Below are positions 18,031-39,477 of a stretch of 64,000 nucleotides of DNA, in pieces (position 1 is the first letter of the stretch; each line of letters starts with the position of its first letter). The notes beneath the pieces were generated by a model, which did not search any database, was not told the origin of the DNA, and saw only the letters and a program-made list of their open reading frames with translations. Origin of the DNA: Polynucleobacter sp. AP-Kolm-20A-A1 (lineage in GTDB: Bacteria > Pseudomonadota > Gammaproteobacteria > Burkholderiales > Burkholderiaceae); NCBI RefSeq assembly GCF_018688315.1, contig NZ_CP061315.1, positions 310,001 through 374,000 of the forward strand, in the 5' to 3' direction. The translations under genes were made by a program, and so were the position numbers.

Positions 18031-20196
18031 ATGAGCATGAGATTGAAGCCGAAGGATTGTGTTTTTATTCTCGGCTTTATTTCTCAAGCAGCAGTGTCAT
18101 GGGCGCAAATTGCGCCACCCCCAGATTACGATCAAAAGTTAGGCGACATGGTTGTTAATGCAACTCGTTCAGGAACGCCTCTGGACGAAATGTCTTTGAA
18201 CACCACCATCTTGACCAAGGAAGTGCTGGAGTCTTCGCCTGATCAAACCATTGATCAAGTGTTGAAGAACGTGCCGGGCGTCTTCTTAAACGATGTACCT
18301 TATTACCAGAAGGATCCAACAGGGCAAAGCATCAATGTGCGCGGCTTGGGCTATGGCAGAACTCTAGTATTGATCGATGGACTCCCAGCCAATGATGCTT
18401 TTTATGGAACGGTGCAGTGGAATTTAGTACCCATGTCTTCGATTGAGTCTGTGGAGTTTGTGCGCGGCGGGGTTTCTAGCTTGTACGGCAACTATGGCAT
18501 GGGCGGTGTAATTAATATCAATACCAAAAACCCTAAAAACAGTTCTCAAGATGTATCGGCAAGTATGGGTTCATTTGGCACAGGCAATGTGGCCGCCTCT
18601 AAAGACTTGATTGTTTCCGATGCGGTGCAAATGCGGTTTTCTGCGGATTACTTTTCAAGCGAAGGGTTTCAAAACTACGCAACGATCTCGCCAGGGTCGC
18701 CAAGCAATATTAAAAATGGCATGGGTACCGATGCAGCCAAGAATTCCAATGTCCGTTTGCAAAATTACTTTAAGCCAACGCAAGATACCAATGCCTTTCT
18801 CAGGATGGGCTACAGCACCATGGCAGATCAGAGTAATAACTATGCCATTGCCCCCAACTTGATACAGACTGCAGATGTAGCAGGCGGCTCCACAACCAAT
18901 CTGGATGTTAATAAAAAAGTTCAGATGAATATCTATTATCAGAACACGAACTTTTATAAACAAACTGCCAATAACTTATCCACCGTACCTTACAAGCCTT
19001 ACATCAACGCCAATTACACAGACCCATATTCAACACTTGGTGCATCGGCACAGTACACACATGATTTGAAAGCTGCCGGAATTGACCAGTACATTATTGG
19101 GGTGGATGCCAGAAACATTTCTGCATCCAATCAAACGAATAATCTCAGCCCTGTTGGTGCCGTTAGCTCCGTAAGCTATGCGCAAGGTCAACAAAATTTT
19201 TATGGCCTGCTGGGTCAAATTAAATCAAAGGCCAGCGCGATTCCACTGGAGGCTACATTAGGTGCGCGTGTTGATGTGTGGAATAGTCAAACACCAACTT
19301 CGTATAACGCCGGCGCCAATGGTGTCAACCCGGTTTATCAAGGCATACCAAATCAAAGTAAAACTCAAGCAAGCCCAACATTAGGCTTGCTATATAAGGC
19401 AACACAAAATTGGGATTTGCGTAGCGCTGCCTATCAAGCGTTTCATGCACCTAGTATGAACAACACATTACGCAGTTACGGTAACTCTGTTAGCGGCTAC
19501 TCCCTAGCAAACCCGAACTTAACACCTGAAACTATGACGGGCTATGAGGTCGGAACCGACTACCGATGGAAGGGTGGTTTTGCGCAGCTCACTGCTTTTA
19601 ATAATTACATTCAGAATGCCATCGCTAGTTACAAAATCACCAGCGCTAATTGGGCGTTTGCAAATGGACTGTGTAGTTCATCGGGACTTTCTGGGTGCTC
19701 TCAAAACAGTACGACCCCTGGCTATACCAATGTGAGTTACTACACCAATCAGCAGAATTTACAAAGTCGCGGTCTTGAACTGCAATATCACCATGATTTA
19801 AATAGTCATTGGGCTGTAGATGGTGGCTATACCTACACTAGAACAGTGTTGACATGGACCGCTACCACCGACCCAATTAATGCTCAGGTTGGCGGCGTTC
19901 CGATGAATATGGCTAATGCGGGCGTCACCTACTTCCCAGTTCCTGAGGCAAGCCTGACGACCACTGTTCGTTATGTCGGCAATTCGTGGATGTCAACAGG
20001 CACTCTTCCGGTCCCCGCTTATGCGGTGGTAGGTCTGAAAGCGAATTACCAGGTAACACCTCAAGCCACAGTATTTGCTTCCGTTGTGAACTTACTGAAC
20101 CGCCAATATGTCACCTTCAATATTGCCTCCCAGGCTACGGCATATCAGGCCGGCATGCCCCAGGCGTTCACTGTTGGTGCGCGCCTTACCTTCTAG
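18031..20196 (+). CDS. TonB-dependent outer-membrane receptor
   Basis: The 721-residue protein has a signal peptide (ending near SWAQ), a TonB-box-like segment at about residues 36-45 (GDMVVNATRS), a plug domain with QSINVRGLGYGRTLVLIDGLP and SSLYGNYGMGGVININT, and a long beta-barrel ending in TVGARLTF with the terminal phenylalanine. Size is in the normal range. The ligand is not visible. It is followed by a PQQ-type dehydrogenase and a cytochrome c, so uptake of PQQ (as for E. coli PqqU/YncD) or of a sugar-like substrate is a reasonable idea. No Fur box is visible upstream. Start ATG 18031 lacks a clear ribosome binding site. Confidence 0.9.
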   Translation: MSMRLKPKDCVFILGFISQAAVSWAQIAPPPDYDQKLGDMVVNATRSGTPLDEMSLNTTILTKEVLESSPDQTIDQVLKNVPGVFLNDVPYYQKDPTGQSINVRGLGYGRTLVLIDGLPANDAFYGTVQWNLVPMSSIESVEFVRGGVSSLYGNYGMGGVININTKNPKNSSQDVSASMGSFGTGNVAASKDLIVSDAVQMRFSADYFSSEGFQNYATISPGSPSNIKNGMGTDAAKNSNVRLQNYFKPTQDTNAFLRMGYSTMADQSNNYAIAPNLIQTADVAGGSTTNLDVNKKVQMNIYYQNTNFYKQTANNLSTVPYKPYINANYTDPYSTLGASAQYTHDLKAAGIDQYIIGVDARNISASNQTNNLSPVGAVSSVSYAQGQQNFYGLLGQIKSKASAIPLEATLGARVDVWNSQTPTSYNAGANGVNPVYQGIPNQSKTQASPTLGLLYKATQNWDLRSAAYQAFHAPSMNNTLRSYGNSVSGYSLANPNLTPETMTGYEVGTDYRWKGGFAQLTAFNNYIQNAIASYKITSANWAFANGLCSSSGLSGCSQNSTTPGYTNVSYYTNQQNLQSRGLELQYHHDLNSHWAVDGGYTYTRTVLTWTATTDPINAQVGGVPMNMANAGVTYFPVPEASLTTTVRYVGNSWMSTGTLPVPAYAVVGLKANYQVTPQATVFASVVNLLNRQYVTFNIASQATAYQAGMPQAFTVGARLTF

Positions 20197-32967: not shown

Positions 32968-33786
32968 TCAAATATGATTAATCGCCTTGATCATTAGACT
33001 TACGGCAATAATTAAAGTAAAGATCGCAAATATTTGCTGAATTCTGGGGCCACTTATCTTTCTTTCTAACGTTTTCCCTAAAAGAAGTCCCAATAATGAA
33101 CCGCAGGCAAATGGAATGGCAATAGCCATGTTTAGGGTTCCGGATGCAAGTGAAATGAAGGCGCCTCCAGCAGAAACAATTGCAAGCACACCAAGTGATG
33201 TAGCCACAATTGATTTCATTGGTAGATCTGTAAATTTATTTAGTGCAGGCACCAAAATAAATCCTCCCCCAACCCCCAATAGACCCGATAGAAAGCCTGC
33301 TGTAGCACCAGAAATCATGAGTGCGCGTGCACATGGAGCCGTCCAAATTAGCTTGCCAATCGAAGAGTCTAATTGGCACGGTGGAGTTTTGGCTTGTTGA
33401 TCTGACTTGCCGGAAAGGTTTTTTGCTACTTGCAGAAGCATGCGAACCGCAACATACATCAACACCAAACTAAATAGTATTGATAATGGAGTGTTAGGCA
33501 CTTTCTGGGCTAGCCATAATCCAAGAGGGGAAAGTATTAAACCAAAGATTGCCATTAACATGGCCGCTTTATACCGAAGTGCCTTGGCTTTTAAGCCTAT
33601 TGCTGCTCCTACAGCAGCGGATATGGTGATGGCTGTTAAGGCAATTGGACCTGCTTCAGAAATAGGCAGGTGTAGCAAAAAAACCAATAGCGGTACTGAT
33701 AAGATGCCGCCACCAGCACCGGTGAGACCCATTAGGACGCCAACAAAGACGCCTATCGCTAAGGTTAGGTAGGGCAAAAAATCCAT
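32968..33786 (-). CDS. TSUP (TauE/SafE) family anion exporter
   Basis: The 272-residue membrane protein has two DUF81 repeats. The first begins GVFVGVLMGLTGAGGGILSVPLL and the second GFLSGLLGVGGGFILVPAL. TSUP proteins export sulfite, thiosulfate or sulfoacetate. Between SQR and an uncharacterised gene, export of sulfite or thiosulfate from sulfide oxidation is the natural reading, as for related proteins of bacterial H2S-response loci. It starts 3 bases after the SQR stop. Confidence 0.82.
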   Translation of the reverse strand: MDFLPYLTLAIGVFVGVLMGLTGAGGGILSVPLLVFLLHLPISEAGPIALTAITISAAVGAAIGLKAKALRYKAAMLMAIFGLILSPLGLWLAQKVPNTPLSILFSLVLMYVAVRMLLQVAKNLSGKSDQQAKTPPCQLDSSIGKLIWTAPCARALMISGATAGFLSGLLGVGGGFILVPALNKFTDLPMKSIVATSLGVLAIVSAGGAFISLASGTLNMAIAIPFACGSLLGLLLGKTLERKISGPRIQQIFAIFTLIIAVSLMIKAINHI

Positions 33787-33789
33787 AAA

Positions 33790-35034
33790 TTAGTTTTCAA
33801 ATGGGCGAGCTAGCCACTCTTTCCCTTTAAGCATTGCATTCCAGTAAAGCCAAGGGAGAACATCTTTCTTCAGAATCCAGGCGAGTCTGGTTGCTTTGAG
33901 TGGATTAATGAGCCATGGGAAGGTTGGCAGGAGTTTTCCGCCAAAGCCAAACTCAGCTAAAACAATTTTTCCATTTTCTACCGTCAATGGGCAAGATCCA
34001 TAGCCATCATATTTGGTTGGCAGTGGCTTGTTATGTTTTGCTGCGAGTAAATTTTCGGCAACCACCACAATTTGTTTTCTGGCTGCTGCTGCAGTTTTAG
34101 AATTTGGCGATGAACAACAATCTCCTAGTCCAAATATATTGGGGTAGCGAGTATGTTGAAGCGTAAATTGGTCTACCTCGACAAAGCCATCCGCATTGGA
34201 AACGGGACTTCCTTTGAGGCAATCTTGAGGTCCTTGTGGAGGCACGACATGCAGAATGTCAAAGGATTTTTCAACCTGTGTGACATTGCCATCCGCATCT
34301 TTCACTGCAAAGATAGCCTTTTTAGCTGGGCCATCCACCGAAATAAGGTTTGTGTTGAAATTGAGTTTGGCATTGTATTTTTTGACGTACTCCATGAGGG
34401 GTGGAACAAAGTCCGCCACGCCAAATAGGGCGGCTCCCGCATTATTTAATTCAACCTCAATATTGTTTAATCGACCTTGTTTTTGCCACTCATAGCAAGA
34501 TAGATACATTGCTTTTTGAGGTGCGCCTGGGCACTTTATCGGCATTGGTGGTTGCGTGAAAATGGCTTTGCCAGACTTCAAGTTGCGCACCAGCTCCCAG
34601 GTGTATGGTGAGTAATCATAGCTGTAGTTGGAGGTCACCCCATTTTTGCCAAGCGTTTCTTTCAGCCCAGGAATCGCATCCCAGTTGGATTTAATGCCAG
34701 TTGCAATTGCCAACTGTTTGTATTTAACGGGAGCGCCATTGTGAACAAGAACTTCATTGGCATCTGGATTGAAGCCTGCAACCTTTTCCTTAATCCAACG
34801 AACACCTGACGGAATGAGGTCTTTGGTATGGCGACGACTTTTTTTGATATTAAATGCACCACCTCCTACAAGTGTCCAAGAGGGTTGGTAAAAATGCTCT
34901 TCAGAGGGTTCAATGATTGCAATGCTTAATGAGTGATCTCTGGCTTTAAGGCTGGCAGCCAGACCTATTCCGGCGGCGCCACCACCTGCAATTACCACGT
35001 CAAACACATCAGATTTTGAGCTTGCTAGAGTCAT
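33790..35034 (-). CDS. Sulfide:quinone oxidoreductase, type II (SQRDL-like)
   Basis: The enzyme oxidises sulfide to sulfane sulfur and passes electrons to quinone at the membrane. The 414-residue flavoprotein has FAD motif VVIAGGGAAGIGLA (13-26). C168 in PIKCPGAPQK and C348 in GYGSCPL match the two redox cysteines of the mitochondrial SQRDL type. A further C306-C307 sits in GLGDCCSSP near the FAD-contact Asp. Length and block order fit. It is divergent from a persulfide dioxygenase-like gene. Together they would detoxify H2S and persulfides. Confidence 0.85.
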   Translation of the reverse strand: MTLASSKSDVFDVVIAGGGAAGIGLAASLKARDHSLSIAIIEPSEEHFYQPSWTLVGGGAFNIKKSRRHTKDLIPSGVRWIKEKVAGFNPDANEVLVHNGAPVKYKQLAIATGIKSNWDAIPGLKETLGKNGVTSNYSYDYSPYTWELVRNLKSGKAIFTQPPMPIKCPGAPQKAMYLSCYEWQKQGRLNNIEVELNNAGAALFGVADFVPPLMEYVKKYNAKLNFNTNLISVDGPAKKAIFAVKDADGNVTQVEKSFDILHVVPPQGPQDCLKGSPVSNADGFVEVDQFTLQHTRYPNIFGLGDCCSSPNSKTAAAARKQIVVVAENLLAAKHNKPLPTKYDGYGSCPLTVENGKIVLAEFGFGGKLLPTFPWLINPLKATRLAWILKKDVLPWLYWNAMLKGKEWLARPFEN

Positions 35035-35124
35035 ACTCCTTTTACCCCCATATTTTTTAGATTTAGATCATTAAAATAGCTCGAATTGACTCAATTGGCT
35101 ATCAGGGTTTGTGATTAGTCTACA

Positions 35125-35150
35125 ATTTTATATATTATTTATTATAAAAT
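35125..35150. promoter_or_regulatory. Candidate operator for the ArsR-type sensor
   Basis: Perfect inverted arms ATTTTATA (35125-35132) and TATAAAAT (35143-35150) are separated by 10 bases, in the 146-base divergent region between SQR and the MBL gene. AT-rich palindromes of this kind are typical of BigR/SqrR targets. The operator role is inferred from position and symmetry. Confidence 0.6.
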
Positions 35151-35180
35151 AAGCTATTCACAGCAAACTGGAATAAATAC

Positions 35181-36041
35181 ATGAAACCGATCGTTAAGGG
35201 CTTTTTTGACCCAGATACCTGGACCGTAACCTATGTGGTTTATGAAAAGCCAGGCTCACCATGCGTCATCATTGATTCGGTGCTGAATTATGACCACAAG
35301 TCAGGCCGTACCAATACGAAATCCGCTGATGAGGTAATCGAGTTTGTTAAGGCTAATAACCTGACTACGGAATGGATCTTAGAAACCCATGCCCACGCAG
35401 ATCATGTTTCAGCGGCACCATATTTAAAAGCAAAGTTAGGTGGCAAGATTGCCATTGGTGACCATATTTCAGTGGTGCAAGGTGTCTTTAAGAAGGTCTT
35501 CAATTTAGAAGAGGCATTTCAGGTGGATGGCTCTCAGTTTGATTATTTGCTTAAAGATGGGGAAGAAATCCAGTTTGGAAACCTGAGCCTGAAATCTCTC
35601 TTTGTTCCTGGACATACTCCGGCCTGTATGGCATATCAAGTAGGTGATGCCGTTTTTGTAGGCGATACGATGTTTATGCCTGATGTCGGGACTGCGCGAT
35701 GCGACTTTCCGGGCGGAGATGCGCACACACTCTATAAGTCTATGCAAAAGATTTTGAGTCTTCCCGGTGAGACTAGATTATTTATGTGTCACGACTATCC
35801 TCCAAATGGTCGTGCAGTAAATTATGAAACAACTGTGGCAGACCAAAAAAAATCTAATATACATATGCATGATGGCATTTCTGAAGATGAGTTCGTGCAA
35901 ATGCGAAGCAAGCGAGATGCTACTTTGCAAATGCCGGTACTCATTCTGCCATCCATTCAAATGAACATCCGGGCTGGTGAAATGCCTCCCAAGGAAAGTA
36001 ATGGCATCGCTTATCTAAAAATTCCACTGAACGCACTGTAA
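35181..36041 (+). CDS. MBL-fold persulfide dioxygenase-like protein
   Basis: The 286-residue protein has the metal-binding motif H70-A-H72-A-D74-H75, a later VPGHTPACMAY histidine and a GDTMFMPDVGTARCDFPGGD segment that the ETHE1/PDO and BLH families share. Persulfide dioxygenase oxidises glutathione persulfide to sulfite. Its partner SQR produces the persulfide. The next gene encodes a persulfide sensor of the BigR/SqrR type, the classic neighbour in bacteria. It starts with a good ATG at 35181 close to the candidate operator. Confidence 0.85.
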   Translation: MKPIVKGFFDPDTWTVTYVVYEKPGSPCVIIDSVLNYDHKSGRTNTKSADEVIEFVKANNLTTEWILETHAHADHVSAAPYLKAKLGGKIAIGDHISVVQGVFKKVFNLEEAFQVDGSQFDYLLKDGEEIQFGNLSLKSLFVPGHTPACMAYQVGDAVFVGDTMFMPDVGTARCDFPGGDAHTLYKSMQKILSLPGETRLFMCHDYPPNGRAVNYETTVADQKKSNIHMHDGISEDEFVQMRSKRDATLQMPVLILPSIQMNIRAGEMPPKESNGIAYLKIPLNAL

Positions 36042-36046
36042 TTCTG

Positions 36047-36367
36047 ATGTTGAACGAAAAGAAGCGGGTTGCTGAGTTTAAAAAGATGCAGTCCTCTGCC
36101 TCCAAGGCTTGCGAGTTCTTAAAGGTGCTCTCAAACCCGAGTCGACTCATGCTGTTATGTGAAATCGCCGTTGAGGAGCGCTGTGTTGGGGATCTGGAGG
36201 AATCAACAGGAATACATCAGCCAACCTTATCGCAACAACTTACAGTGCTGCGAACTAAAAAGTTGGTTAAGACACGGCGAGAGGGTAAGCAAATTTACTA
36301 CTCTCTTTCCAGCGATATAGCGCTATCAGTAATGAATTTGCTTTATAGCCATTACTGCAAAAAATAA
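36047..36367 (+). CDS. ArsR-family persulfide-sensing repressor (BigR/SqrR-type)
   Basis: The 106-residue winged-helix protein has the ArsR HTH (VGDLEESTGIHQPTLSQQLTVLRTKKLV). It carries C38 (MLLCEIA) and C104 (SHYCKK), 66 residues apart. BigR and SqrR use two cysteines with the same separation that join in a tetrasulfide when persulfide appears, which releases the DNA. C22 and C46 are extra. It follows the persulfide dioxygenase-like gene after 5 bases and is expected to control both divergent transcripts. Metal sensing is less likely, because the ArsR metal box CxC is absent. Confidence 0.85.
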   Translation: MLNEKKRVAEFKKMQSSASKACEFLKVLSNPSRLMLLCEIAVEERCVGDLEESTGIHQPTLSQQLTVLRTKKLVKTRREGKQIYYSLSSDIALSVMNLLYSHYCKK

Positions 36368-36402: not shown

Positions 36403-36816
36403 TTATTTTGACTTCCTCGGCACAAGTAGATGCAGCAGAAAGATGCCAATAAACATCAAGCCGATGATCCAATGAGTGCTAATCACTCCTTCGCGAAATT
36501 CTTCTGGTCCGTAATAAAGTAATGCTCCAGTAATTAATAGTGAAAATAGAAAGCTCAGCTGACTAAAGCCACTTAGCCACTTTCTTTTTGATAGGAAACC
36601 CGCCTTGATATGAAATGGCAGCACCGAACCAAGGGCTAAGGTTGCCAGCATAGCAGCAACACCATGGGCAGCTAGGATGCTATGAGTTCCAAGAGTGGTT
36701 CGCTGTATCTGAAATTGATGGCCTAGTAGATACATGAGGCCCGTAATAGAGCAAGTCATCATGCCGATAATCACAAACTTTCTTTGCCAGTTCGGCATTT
36801 TCCCAAGGCGGCTCAT
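36403..36816 (-). CDS. Four-helix membrane protein with paired histidines (possible heme b protein)
   Basis: The 137-residue protein has four hydrophobic helices and a basic tail. Helix 2 carries H45, H51 and H69. Helix 4 carries H115 and H129, exactly 14 residues apart. Histidines 13-14 apart on helices commonly ligate b-type heme. It is the last gene of the Fur-box operon and its start overlaps the apbE stop by 4 bases. I therefore propose that it passes electrons from quinol or a cytoplasmic donor to the flavinylated periplasmic protein, which is inference. A resemblance to DUF4405/cytochrome b561-like domains is only by pattern. Confidence 0.6.
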   Translation of the reverse strand: MSRLGKMPNWQRKFVIIGMMTCSITGLMYLLGHQFQIQRTTLGTHSILAAHGVAAMLATLALGSVLPFHIKAGFLSKRKWLSGFSQLSFLFSLLITGALLYYGPEEFREGVISTHWIIGLMFIGIFLLHLLVPRKSK

Positions 36817-37637
36817 GCGGCAATTCTCAGGGCTTGCGCTGAAAAGCGGGTGAAACAGGGATGGTGCTCATTATTGGATAAGGCTAAGACTTTCGTGAGG
36901 GCGTCTGCATAGACGCACTCTTTAGCTAGAACTGAGAATGAGCCCAAAACCTCAGCGTGCACTTCAGAAAGGTTCTGGGCCAGGGGATTGATAATGTGAC
37001 TTATCTGTTGATCTCTTTTTGCAAAGTAAAGACTGCTTGTTGCAATGGCGCCATCTTTCAAGGAGCCAATCTCAATCAGTTTTTCAGGAAGCCCTGGATC
37101 TCGGATCTGAATTGGCAGCGCAGTTTTACCAAATACCCGTAGGTCACCACCAGCATTTACAGATCCCGATGTTATTCCCTCGGAGATTAAAACTCTTACT
37201 GCCATATCAACCGCAAATCCTTTAGCAATGCCACCAAGGTCCAAACACACTGGTCGATCTGATTTGATGAGATCAGGCGCCAAAAACTGAATATCCTCAA
37301 TGCCGCCAAGCTCATGGTTTGTGAAGGTGATGTGTCGCGGCAATAGGCCTGCAGCAACGAGGCGATGGCCAATGCCGCAATTGAATAGACCATCTGAAGC
37401 CAAATAAACTTCTTTAGCAATCTTGATTACTTGGGCTGTCCACGGATGAATTTCAACAGCTTCTTTATGGGCAAGTTGATTGATGAGGCTGAGCTCACTC
37501 TCAGGATTATGAAACCCCATGAGGTCGTGTACTTTCTGAATTGCATTGAAGGCGTTTTCAATCGCCTCTAATCCATCTTCATTTTCCCGAATGGAGATTT
37601 CCACAAAAGTACCCAGTAGGGGTTTGCAACGAATCAT
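36813..37637 (-). CDS. apbE: FAD:protein FMN transferase ApbE
   Basis: The enzyme cuts FAD and attaches FMN through a phosphoester bond to a Thr/Ser of a target protein. The 274-residue sequence starts RCKPLLGTFVEISI, the usual first block, followed by LGGIAKGFAVDMA, GSVNAGGDLRVFG and YADALTKVLAL, which bind FAD and Mg2+. No signal peptide or lipobox precedes the first block, which is odd because the likely target protein has a Sec signal. The gene overlaps its neighbours by 4 bases on each side, so it is made with the FMN-binding protein. Confidence 0.9.
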   Translation of the reverse strand: MIRCKPLLGTFVEISIRENEDGLEAIENAFNAIQKVHDLMGFHNPESELSLINQLAHKEAVEIHPWTAQVIKIAKEVYLASDGLFNCGIGHRLVAAGLLPRHITFTNHELGGIEDIQFLAPDLIKSDRPVCLDLGGIAKGFAVDMAVRVLISEGITSGSVNAGGDLRVFGKTALPIQIRDPGLPEKLIEIGSLKDGAIATSSLYFAKRDQQISHIINPLAQNLSEVHAEVLGSFSVLAKECVYADALTKVLALSNNEHHPCFTRFSAQALRIAA

Positions 37638-38206
37638 TTTGCTTTGATAGTTTGGGTTTGGGCGCCTGGCGAAGAGGTGTTCTTCAGGGCTAACTCATAT
37701 AAAACGGCAACTCGCTTCACGCCATCAGTGAGATGCTTGCAAGAGAGGGTGGCTCCCCCAATATTTTGAATATCCTGATTAAGCTTAATGGGATCGCTTG
37801 CGGTCTTGCCCACAAATTGCTTGCGCCATTGCGCTTCCGCCACTTCATAACCATAAGACTCAACGTATTCCAAAACTTCAATACCGGCGATGCTGCCATT
37901 TGGATTGATAGCAACAGCATAGGTAATCATTTCATGTTTGCCTACCACTTCATCGATCACTAGCCAGCTTCCATCAGCGGCCTTCCATATCCTATCGCCC
38001 TGAAAGGGGTGGCGAATGCTGGAGGCAGAGCGCATTTTGTCTTGCAGGTCATCGGTAATGATGATGGGATTTTTTGTTAGCGTCTTATTGGGAAAGAGTA
38101 TTTTCTGAGCTTGCTCTACAGAAACATAAATTTTTGCATGGGCAATGATCGGTGCACTAATCATCGCAATGCCAATAAGAGCTAAAGGGTTAGGTTTCCA
38201 AATCAT
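37634..38206 (-). CDS. Exported FMN-binding domain protein with a flavinylation motif
   Basis: The 190-residue protein has a signal peptide (hydrophobic 8-22, cut near AHAK) and an FMN_bind domain of the NqrC/RnfG/NosR kind. The motif around D145 to S155 (DIQNIGGATLS) fits the ApbE target consensus, predicting FMN on T153. The upstream domain contains conserved aromatics and a YVESYGYE segment. The next gene encodes ApbE, overlapping by 4 bases. It would be a periplasmic one- or two-electron carrier. There is no sign of a transmembrane anchor other than the signal. Confidence 0.82.
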   Translation of the reverse strand: MIWKPNPLALIGIAMISAPIIAHAKIYVSVEQAQKILFPNKTLTKNPIIITDDLQDKMRSASSIRHPFQGDRIWKAADGSWLVIDEVVGKHEMITYAVAINPNGSIAGIEVLEYVESYGYEVAEAQWRKQFVGKTASDPIKLNQDIQNIGGATLSCKHLTDGVKRVAVLYELALKNTSSPGAQTQTIKAK

Positions 38207-38215
38207 TATTTCAAT

Positions 38216-38395
38216 TTAAGCAGTAAGTAGTTCATTTGCTTCGTTACAAAGCGTTTGGATATCGTTGTTAATGCCTTTGAGATTGGAGAGTGTTTCAAAC
38301 ATCATTAGCGCTCTCTCCTTAGCTATTTGGCATTGGGTCGCTTGAAACTTCAACAAGTGAGTCAGAGCCGCAACTAATAGATTCTGAGTTTCCAT
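38216..38395 (-). CDS. Unknown 59-residue protein inside the Fur-box operon
   Basis: I chose the ATG at 38395, just after the outer-membrane protein stop. A longer start at 38452 would overlap that gene by 38 bases. The protein is mainly helical, amphipathic, with one cysteine in the middle (QATQCQIAK) and one near the end (TLCNEANELL). No signal peptide, no known family. It is kept between the outer-membrane protein gene and the FMN-binding protein gene, with 19- and 9-base gaps. It might be a small accessory subunit, but coding status itself needs support from relatives. Confidence 0.45.
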   Translation of the reverse strand: METQNLLVAALTHLLKFQATQCQIAKERALMMFETLSNLKGINNDIQTLCNEANELLTA

Positions 38396-38414
38396 AAGTT
38401 CTTTCGTTTGGTTT

Positions 38415-39329
38415 TTAGTTAAGAGGGAAGCCAACTTTGACAATGAATTCATTTACTGAGTGGCTATCCCAAACGCGGGCGTTAGAGCATTCAGCAGTAC
38501 CGTCACCCATGCAGGTGTTGCCTTTCAGCTGGTAGCGCCAGGCACCAGTAATCCACCAGTCTTTGGCTGCATAGTGCACATTAGGGCCAACAAAAGTGGC
38601 TTTCTGAACCTGGTTTTGTAAGTTGTAGCTTGAGTAGTCATTATGGAAGCGCGCTTCTACGCCGGCTGACCATTTGGGGGCAAAACGATAGCTTGCACCC
38701 ACTAAAAAATCCAGCATCGATTCTGGTACGTTGCCATTGCCAACAAATTTCAATTGCTCGTTTGCAACGACCACGTTTCCAGCCAGTATTAGGCGATCAT
38801 CAATAAAATTTGATTGCAATAACAGACGAGCTTCAATTTCATTTTTATTGCGACCGAGTGTTGGCTCTAAGTAAAGTCCTACTCCAACTGGAGAGGTCAC
38901 TGGATTAGTAATTCGATATATGGCCTCTAGAGAGCCGCCCTCAATACCGCTTTTGCGATATGGTGTCGCTGGATTGTGACTTTCAGGAACGGGTTGACCA
39001 CCAGTACAGGTAGCCGCCTCACCGCATGCCTCTGGGTTTGTGTAGTTTTGGTTGGCATTTACGTAATACGCATTTAAATAGCCTGCGATTTGTAAATCAT
39101 TAGTAAGGCCGTACTCAAGCTCTGTGCGTGATAGCCAGTTGTTATAAGAACCGCTTGCTTGTTGTTTGTTGAGTTGCAGGCGCTGTTCAAACTCTAGACT
39201 TCCTTTGGGCTGTAGATCCAGGGTGTAGATCCACCCAAAAGCGCCTTCCCCAGCATGGGCGAGAGAGAAGTGGAGGGCGGCTGCAAGAAAACAGGTAAAG
39301 GCGAGTAGTTTTTTGAGGTTGAATTTCAT
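38415..39329 (-). CDS. Outer-membrane beta-barrel-like protein, DUF6662-like
   Basis: The 304-residue protein has a signal peptide (cut near AHAGEG) and a strand-rich rest with many alternating aromatic residues, GYLNAYYVN, GVGLYLEPTL and a terminal VKVGFPLN, as in outer-membrane barrels. Two cysteine pairs (C102/C108-region and C272/C279-region) may form disulfides in loops. It is the first gene behind two Fur boxes, so it is probably induced by iron limitation. The name DUF6662 is my recollection of such proteins and has not been checked. It has no TonB plug domain and is too small for a TonB receptor. Confidence 0.6.
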   Translation of the reverse strand: MKFNLKKLLAFTCFLAAALHFSLAHAGEGAFGWIYTLDLQPKGSLEFEQRLQLNKQQASGSYNNWLSRTELEYGLTNDLQIAGYLNAYYVNANQNYTNPEACGEAATCTGGQPVPESHNPATPYRKSGIEGGSLEAIYRITNPVTSPVGVGLYLEPTLGRNKNEIEARLLLQSNFIDDRLILAGNVVVANEQLKFVGNGNVPESMLDFLVGASYRFAPKWSAGVEARFHNDYSSYNLQNQVQKATFVGPNVHYAAKDWWITGAWRYQLKGNTCMGDGTAECSNARVWDSHSVNEFIVKVGFPLN

Positions 39330-39358
39330 CTTTTTAGTGGGCCGGTTGTTAATCTAAA

Positions 39359-39373
39359 TGAGAATTGTTCTCA
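39359..39373. promoter_or_regulatory. Fur box 1 (TGAGAATTGTTCTCA)
   Basis: The 15-base sequence is a palindrome with 6-base arms TGAGAA/TTCTCA around TTG, the common core of a Fur box. It lies 30 bases upstream of the outer-membrane protein start and between it and the divergent DUF3820 gene. Confidence 0.85.
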
Positions 39374-39386
39374 CTATAACACTAAA

Positions 39387-39401
39387 TGAGAATGATTCTC
39401 A
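39387..39401. promoter_or_regulatory. Fur box 2 (TGAGAATGATTCTCA)
   Basis: A perfect 7-1-7 inverted repeat, the canonical Fur-box form. Its centre is 28 bases from the first box, so two Fur dimers could bind on about the same face of the DNA. It lies between the operon and the divergent gene at 39478. Confidence 0.9.
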
Positions 39402-39477
39402 AGTGACTTAATAGCCATCAACTTAACAATGGTGAAATAAATGGCCCCTTCCTTATTTGCTTGTAAGATTTCTCCAA

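Follow-up and report, generated by a model that had tools for sequence, protein, structure and literature searches.

A conserved operon behind Fur-like boxes in Polynucleobacter, proposed to carry electrons to periplasmic iron

The principle of a Fur-repressed ApbE operon tied to iron is already published, and in Caulobacter it is shown at the level of expression. In C. crescentus, an operon of the DUF2271 type (CC3059-3063) is induced by low iron and by the loss of Fur (PMC3751524), and flavinylation operons of the DUF2271/PepSY-like kind have been linked to VIT1 and TonB genes (PMC8238504). Genes for proteins that bind flavin mononucleotide (FMN) are also found in the P19/FTR1 clusters, which serve iron uptake (PMC8238504), and in the iron-uptake cluster sifABCDE of Bifidobacterium (PMC5449479). 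Small membrane proteins of the DUF4405 family, with four central histidines, occur in apbE clusters as well, and heme b binding has been shown for one of them (PMC11334425). The subject of this analysis is a cassette that resembles these systems in part. It lies in a window (the whole stretch of DNA that was analysed) of 64 kb from the one-contig, 1.92 Mb genome of a Polynucleobacter sp., where five genes on the minus strand span positions 36403-39329, downstream of two Fur-like boxes (Table 1).

The role that we consider probable for this operon is the reduction of ferric iron under the control of Fur: electrons would pass from quinol through a diheme cytochrome and a periplasmic FMN to Fe(III), which would enter by way of DUF6662, and FeoB would take up the Fe(II) formed. 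When iron is scarce, Fur would leave both boxes and the operon would be expressed. Electrons, most likely from quinol, would then enter a four-helix diheme b cytochrome of the inner membrane, whose hemes would be held between His69/His129 on the cytoplasm side and between His51/His115 on the periplasm side. The cytochrome would hand them to the FMN carried on Thr153 of an exported FMN_bind protein, and the reduced flavin would reduce ferric iron in the periplasm. The 12-strand barrel of DUF6662 would be the outer-membrane channel for the iron or for a weak iron chelate, and the resulting Fe(II) would be imported by FeoB, itself encoded behind the same kind of box. The sequence shows the gene order, its conservation, the boxes, the predicted folds, the histidines and the linkage to FeoB; Fur binding, the heme and flavin content, the electron donor, the direction of flow, iron as the acceptor and the cargo of the barrel are inferred.

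Table 1. Features of the operon and its upstream region, in window coordinates (aa, amino acids; FAD, flavin adenine dinucleotide)
Feature	Position	Strand	Remarks
DUF6662 barrel gene	38415-39329	minus	304 aa; Pfam match, structure model
Small open reading frame	38216-38452	minus	78 aa, or 59 aa with the ATG at 38395
FMN_bind gene	37634-38206	minus	190 aa, signal-like N-terminus; Pfam match
Presumed flavin attachment site (Thr153), codons D145-S155 of FMN_bind	37742-37774	minus	
ApbE-family FAD:protein FMN transferase gene	36813-37637	minus	Without signal peptide; Pfam match
Four-helix membrane protein gene	36403-36816	minus	137 aa, His51/His69/His115/His129; predicted diheme b-type cytochrome
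Fur-like box 1, TGAGAATGATTCTCA	39387-39401		Perfect palindrome, 0 mismatches; overlies the predicted -35
Fur-like box 2, TGAGAATTGTTCTCA	39359-39373		1 mismatch; touches the predicted -10
Sigma-70-like promoter, TTGAGA-18-TATAGT	39373-39402	minus	TG before the -10; 10 of 12 matches

The cassette and its conservation

The DUF6662, FMN_bind and ApbE proteins of the window score 41.2, 42.1 and 141.1 bits against Pfam cut-offs of 27, 22 and 25.6, and overlaps of four bases join FMN_bind to ApbE and ApbE to the four-helix gene. The genes, their order, the overlaps and the boxes had been described in an earlier note made from this DNA alone, and all were confirmed. That note treated the five genes as one set; four of them are conserved, but the small protein of 59 residues is not in the conserved core. 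It reaches no family cut-off in Pfam or NCBIfam, and its gene was matched at 9 of the 13 loci from congeners, while the other 27 loci of the same comparison gave no match. Judged by these matches, it is an optional component, seen only in the genus.

A scan of a species-genome collection gave at least 555 confirmed relatives, and the best 80 were used for the locus counts. The order barrel, FMN_bind, ApbE and four-helix gene, on one strand, is kept in 71 of these best 80 named relatives. Among the other nine, the barrel is divergent in two and without a match in four, and ApbE is without a match in three, two of which also have no four-helix match. The hosts range from Beta-, Gamma- and Alphaproteobacteria to Verrucomicrobia and include Polaromonas, Roseateles, Variovorax, Ralstonia, Acinetobacter, Nitrospirillum, Chthoniobacter and metagenome-assembled genomes (MAGs) of Verrucomicrobia; the phage collection gave no match. 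Within the genus, FMN_bind was detected in 13 of 14 other sampled congeners, and all 13 loci, each of which was examined, have matches to the barrel, FMN_bind, ApbE and four-helix genes as well as two boxes at up to two mismatches. In a larger sample of Polynucleobacter, 142 of 186 genomes carry an FMN_bind match. The other 44 have none; some of these genomes are incomplete, and repeated loss is possible. At one of the 13 congener loci (L069, in genome G094), the matches to ApbE and to the barrel are each spread over more than one frame, as though the genes were broken.

The barrel family itself keeps close company with the cassette. A sample of 398 genomes gave 12 DUF6662 genes, spread over 11 genomes, and eleven of these genes stand beside FMN_bind and ApbE. 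The exception (L233 in genome G064, a Polynucleobacter) is a lone paralogue with no FMN_bind or ApbE within 1.5 kb, and a full cassette is found elsewhere in the same genome. In the class sample, DUF6662 is present in 5 of 369 genomes, and all five have a cassette-type FMN_bind gene close by, although a porin gene separates the two in one of them.

Matches to a second type of FMN_bind protein, termed clan B (about 30% identity), were set aside; of the 82 class genomes with an FMN_bind match, 74 have no other kind. At thirteen clan B loci (L086-L098), no barrel or ApbE match was found, and tblastn matched FMN_bind in eleven (not in L086 or L091), all with a canonical motif of the D-[G/N]-I-[S/T]-G-A-T type by eye. 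Loci L087-L098 represent a second FMN_bind family of the class, with the motifs W-x-x-DEIGKE-x-PIT, FRESRGWEV and I-S/T-G-A-T-L-S. At L097, the clan B gene is tail to tail (convergent) with a four-helix cytochrome-like gene.

Fur-like boxes and the link to ferrous iron uptake

The boxes were searched with the pattern TGAKAATNATTMTCA, a 7-1-7 form. Its K/M wobble and mismatch limit were set after the boxes of the window had been seen, so that independent support for Fur comes from the relatives and from feoAB. The classical 19-mer Fur consensus GATAATGATAATCATTATC had been tried as well and has no match within three mismatches. The two boxes, which start 30 and 58 bases ahead of the barrel start, are the sole sites of the window at up to one mismatch and two of eight such places in the 1.92 Mb genome. 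Of the other six places, one lies before feoA-feoB, one before the gene for a high-potential iron-sulfur protein (HiPIP) and one before a cytochrome b561 gene. The predicted -35 occupies 39402-39397 and the -10 ends at 39373; promoter matches of this kind are common by chance (5.5 per shuffle against 2 found) and are weak evidence alone. The Fur-like boxes lie at this predicted promoter, which makes the operon a candidate member of the Fur regulon, and Fur would bind at both boxes.

In the relatives, a box was counted at up to two mismatches and up to 200 nucleotides upstream of the first cassette gene, and it is present at 48 of the 80 named loci. By group, it is found in 15 of 15 titled Polynucleobacter, in 9 of 10 beta-proteobacterial MAGs without a genus name (the tenth, in which no box was scored, has one base of upstream sequence) and in 24 of 55 others, a group that holds some near-identical loci (L108-L110 and L166-L167). 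Several box-bearing loci of this last group have a guanine-cytosine content of 60-67%. Elsewhere in the same loci, 14 sites were counted in 993,506 bases, or 0.0029 expected per search interval. The reversed pattern gave a box at 0 of 80 loci, and the pattern itself gave none upstream of ApbE (0 of 74) or of the four-helix gene (0 of 77). Scattered genes and missing boxes in relatives had been named in the earlier note as what would refute it, and the check favours the note: the order is mostly kept and 48 loci have a box, although the remaining 32 show none at this threshold.

Iron is the best-supported purpose of the cassette, because the same kind of box stands before feoAB, because FeoB co-occurs with the cassette and because feo genes follow it in some relatives. 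In the genome of the window itself, a Fur-like site with one mismatch starts 58 bases before feoA-feoB. Across the 186 Polynucleobacter genomes, FMN_bind and FeoB are found together in 105, FMN_bind only in 37, FeoB only in 8 and neither in 36 (Fisher p 5e-11). At 3 of the 80 loci, the cassette is followed by feo genes: feoA and feoB in Polaromonas (L107), one further unclassified frame and then FeoB and FeoA in an Azonexaceae locus (L155), and the start of FeoB, followed by the contig end, in Dechloromonas (L168). These three lines link the cassette to ferrous iron uptake and support the role in iron acquisition that the earlier note had suggested.

If true, this reading would be of consequence for the host. 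Polynucleobacter is a common freshwater genus. According to a transcriptome study of P. asymbioticus, only ferrous uptake (e.g., FeoAB) is known in this species, the Fe3+ of its medium cannot be used, and feoA and feoB are up about fourfold in samples that seem to be short of iron (PMC6629928). A cassette that looks like a periplasmic ferric reductase would supply the missing step.

Other observations touch on iron or on the boxes. At 288825 in the same genome (L198), a perfect Fur-like box is followed by the HiPIP gene and then by a gene for an HPP-family membrane protein; an iron-sulfur protein behind such a box is unexpected. A Methylocystis plasmid carries multicopper oxidase and ferritin-like genes downstream of its cassette. 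At L085 (6000-11451), genes for imelysin, a diheme oxidoreductase (DHOR), a second imelysin and DUF1513 come directly before DUF6662, FMN_bind and ApbE, a link between imelysin clusters and flavinylation. Four TonB receptors of the genome were considered and put aside, as they reach no NCBIfam cut-off among the listed families and have no upstream box at up to two mismatches; they may still be iron receptors. Two TonB receptors, at 18031-20196 of the window and at L204 (2088-4373), have similar N-termini and are each followed by a gene of about 410 amino acids, the window copy of which matches a PVC-type heme-binding CxxCH model below its cut-off.

Predicted electron carriers and competing readings

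The structure model of the barrel (mean predicted local distance difference test, pLDDT, 91.9) has 12 strands, and its N-terminus looks signal-like by eye. All 39 rows of the alignment, from which L125 was left out and to which L085 was added, match PF20367 (DUF6662) at E 0.001, and E28, E72, Y214, E225, H252 and Y253 are invariant in them. Among the best fold matches in the PDB are FapF (E 2e-10) and the COG4313 channel (E 2e-7), which are like DUF6662 in predicted fold but share 9-12% identity with it. A sequence search of the PDB with the barrel profile gave nothing, and the open-licence literature that was searched makes no mention of DUF6662.

The model of the four-helix protein (pLDDT 89.7) has helices at residues 9-33, 44-76, 80-102 and 105-131. 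The basic residues, which lie at the two ends and in the central loop, point to an N-terminus on the inside, and with this topology His51/His115 would face the periplasm and His69/His129 the cytoplasm. In an alignment of 64 of 67 non-redundant rows (L126, L161 and L163 were dropped as short), His51, His69 and His129 are present in every one of the 64 rows, and His115 in 63, with a gap in the remaining row. The VIA neighbours of the model include the designed heme bundles 4D2 and m4D2, cytochrome b6, the b561 superoxide oxidase, FdnI and HyaC. Foldseek returned nothing below E 0.001 for the model (the best was FdnI at 0.05), a PDB sequence search with the profile returned solely antenna proteins at E above 0.05, and hhalign against one b561 and one DUF4405 protein gave weak, partial matches with probabilities of 11 and 27.

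Known families lie at some distance from this protein. The DUF4405 model (PF14358) scores 13 bits on the window protein against a cut-off of 26.7 and is found at E 0.01 in 22 of the 64 rows (best 1.6e-6); the cytochrome b561 model (PF01292) is absent for the window protein at E up to 1 and is found at E 0.01 in 22 of 64 rows (best 1.3e-8). The families that mark the membrane proteins of PepSY-like, MsrQ-like, NapH-like and DsbD systems (PF03929/PF16357, PF01794, PF12801 and PF02683; PMC8238504) are absent for the window protein at E up to 1, and none of them is among the 25 families (of 26) seen for the 64 rows. The protein is predicted to be a diheme b-type cytochrome: the model and the alignment agree with the four helices and paired histidines that the earlier note had pointed out, in a predicted fold that resembles diheme cytochromes but also bundles without heme. 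Reduced nicotinamide adenine dinucleotide (NADH), which had been named as another donor, is unsupported as a direct one, since no nucleotide-binding domain was found with Pfam in the 137 residues.

A membrane cytochrome of this kind could also work in the other direction. Electrons would then flow inward, from a periplasmic donor or superoxide through the flavin to quinone, in the manner of a superoxide oxidase, and radical damage would be limited. Superoxide oxidase is not known to depend on an FMN_bind protein, on ApbE or on a barrel in the outer membrane, which counts against such a role, and the Fur-like boxes and the FeoB linkage point to uptake. We hold this inward flow to be very improbable, and outward flow to ferric iron stays the preferred reading.

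ApbE and FMN_bind, both above their Pfam cut-offs, are encoded together in the window and in relatives, and the cassette ApbE is the sole ApbE match of the genome. Among solved structures, RnfG comes nearest to the FMN_bind profile (E 1.9e-8), ahead of NqrC (E 0.0029). The FMN_bind N-terminus is hydrophobic by eye; an AxA-before-Tyr pattern is seen in 37 of 80 relatives and a Tat-like pattern in 1 of 80. This N-terminus often reads M-x-W-x-P, with W as the third residue in 52 of 80 and P as the fifth in 49 of 80, which is unusual for a plain signal peptide.

Several observations weigh against the proposed iron route. Three of the eight class genomes with a cassette-type FMN_bind gene have no DUF6662, and loci L076-L078 carry Porin_O_P in its place. 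Three of the eight box places in the genome have no recognised iron gene, no box was found in 32 of the 80 relatives at up to two mismatches, and at the same limit it is missing in 10 of 12 Verrucomicrobia loci. Designed bundles without heme reach a similar Z among the VIA neighbours of the four-helix model. Copper ATPases, multicopper oxidases and peroxidases adjoin the cassette in other clades, the ApbE of the window has no signal peptide and falls, by its alignment, within a subgroup whose active site is altered, and FMN_bind misses the canonical flavinylation motif.

The copper and peroxidase genes bear on the possibility that the operon supplies electrons in the periplasm to a copper ion, a peroxidase or a repair enzyme, not to free iron, with Fur control serving iron sparing or the response to oxidative stress. 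A copper ATPase, partly together with a multicopper oxidase, stands beside the cassette in L072-L074, L108-L111, L166 and L167, and a MauG/CCP peroxidase with a porin-type gene does so in L076-L078 and in Ideonella (L219). MsrPQ, an electron supply line for repair, also counts in favour of such an acceptor. However, flanking-protein clustering of 92 loci (45 clusters inspected) shows mainly clade-specific synteny, and the non-iron neighbours vary by clade (outside that synteny, the most often shared are Porin_O_P, at 9 loci, and a copper-type ATPase, at 7), whereas the four genes are constant. The feo genes, on the other hand, adjoin three of the 80 cassettes, and two predicted hemes would save no iron, which would speak against iron sparing. 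An acceptor other than iron is therefore rated unlikely, and reduction of ferric iron remains the reading followed here.

The flavin is the second point of doubt. The canonical motif is D-x-x-[S/T]-G-A-[S/T], and the catalytic triad of ApbE is Asp-Ser-His (PMC12052999). The window protein reads D145-I-Q-N-I-G-G-A-T153-L-S (in general D-x-x-N-I-[S/G/T]-G-A-T-L-S), with Q where the motif has its D and G where it has S/T. The canonical aspartate, six residues before the Thr, is found in just 1 of 53 FMN_bind rows, and the S/T position is filled by S or T in 42. As to ApbE, an alignment of 34 hand-picked rows, the window included, has the general-base His in 3 rows (the window among them; the loop is gappy) and ADALTK with a fixed Lys in 34, while the six outgroup ApbEs all keep SGDY...SH..[DE]P and ADA[WY]AT. 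On this evidence the divergent ApbE could be inactive in flavinylation, and FMN_bind would hold a ligand or free FMN. Against this, Thr153 and G-A-T-L-S are invariant in 53 of 53 rows, the Ser and Asp of the triad are present in 34 of 34, and 77 of the 80 loci have an ApbE match. In a Klebsiella protein, substitution of the motif aspartate is reported to have been of little consequence (PMC12052999). That covalent flavin plays no part is, in sum, rated improbable, and FMN is presumably attached at Thr153. Of the ApbE target motif named in the earlier note, the G-A-T with its invariant Thr stands, but the canonical aspartate is missing and the motif is a variant.

Flavinylation may take place on either side of the inner membrane, since cytosolic ApbEs exist, e.g., for a soluble fumarate reductase of Klebsiella (PMC12052999). 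In the window, the ApbE frame taken from the preceding stop gives no hydrophobic segment, and the protein starts at the domain itself. The domain start was located in 75 of the 77 ApbE loci, and 73 of them have no hydrophobic stretch before it (28 of the 73 have fewer than 15 residues there); L122 and L139 have one. Five DUF2271-linked ApbEs also start without a signal peptide at their annotated starts, so a signal-less ApbE is not unique. A more far-reaching version of the proposal, which we offer tentatively as possible but not likely, is a self-contained iron route with a channel family (DUF6662) and a diheme cytochrome family of its own and with an ApbE and a substrate that have diverged together. 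In it, the signal-less ApbE, which mostly lacks the general-base His and has the fixed Lys of ADALTK, would flavinylate a non-canonical site, probably before export. Such a route would account for the life on ferric iron of bacteria such as Polynucleobacter, to which ferrous uptake alone has been credited.

The operon is adjoined at 32968-36367, on the other strand, by a gene set of sulfide/persulfide type. It holds a TauE/SafE-like membrane protein, assigned by eye, and three further genes whose products stay below the equivalog or exception cut-off of NCBIfam: an SQR-like oxidoreductase of type III, a sulfur dioxygenase like Blh and an ArsR regulator like BigR, for which a general ArsR model passes.

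Comparison with known systems

If the reading is right, the cassette would point to a role for DUF6662, extend the published flavinylation systems by a membrane component and raise the question of how an exported protein comes to be modified by an ApbE that has no signal peptide. Among the flavinylation systems listed in PMC8238504, none has a membrane component like the four-helix protein. No paper was recognised as describing the cassette in the open-licence literature, taken without supplements, and the supplement of PMC8238504 may list it.

Rnf and Nqr share with the cassette a relative of its FMN_bind profile, RnfG and NqrC. A scan of ten window proteins around the cluster found no RnfB, NqrF, NosZ or other subunit of Rnf, Nqr or NosR, and the cassette is, as had been claimed, unlike all three systems. 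The P19/FTR1 and sifABCDE clusters likewise combine an FMN-binding protein with iron uptake, but the operon has no P19, FTR1 or ABC transporter gene, and those clusters have been described mostly in Gram-positives. The DUF4405 cytochromes share the four central histidines of the four-helix protein; however, they are described as having six transmembrane segments, often with a flavodoxin-type substrate (PMC11334425), whereas the window protein has four helices and scores below the family cut-off.

A close likeness is to the DUF2271/PepSY-like/DUF4198/ApbE operons, which also combine ApbE, an exported flavin substrate and a membrane cytochrome. They differ in that the substrate is DUF2271 and not FMN_bind, the membrane part is PepSY and not a four-helix cytochrome, no DUF6662 barrel is annotated in the five regions inspected, and the active-site motifs of their ApbEs are canonical. 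The suggestion of a distinct iron-acquisition system holds in part: the cassette is distinct, conserved and linked to Fur-like boxes, but Fur-repressed flavinylation as a principle was already known from the DUF2271/PepSY operons (PMC8238504, PMC3751524). Its newest part is the unusual pair of ApbE and substrate.

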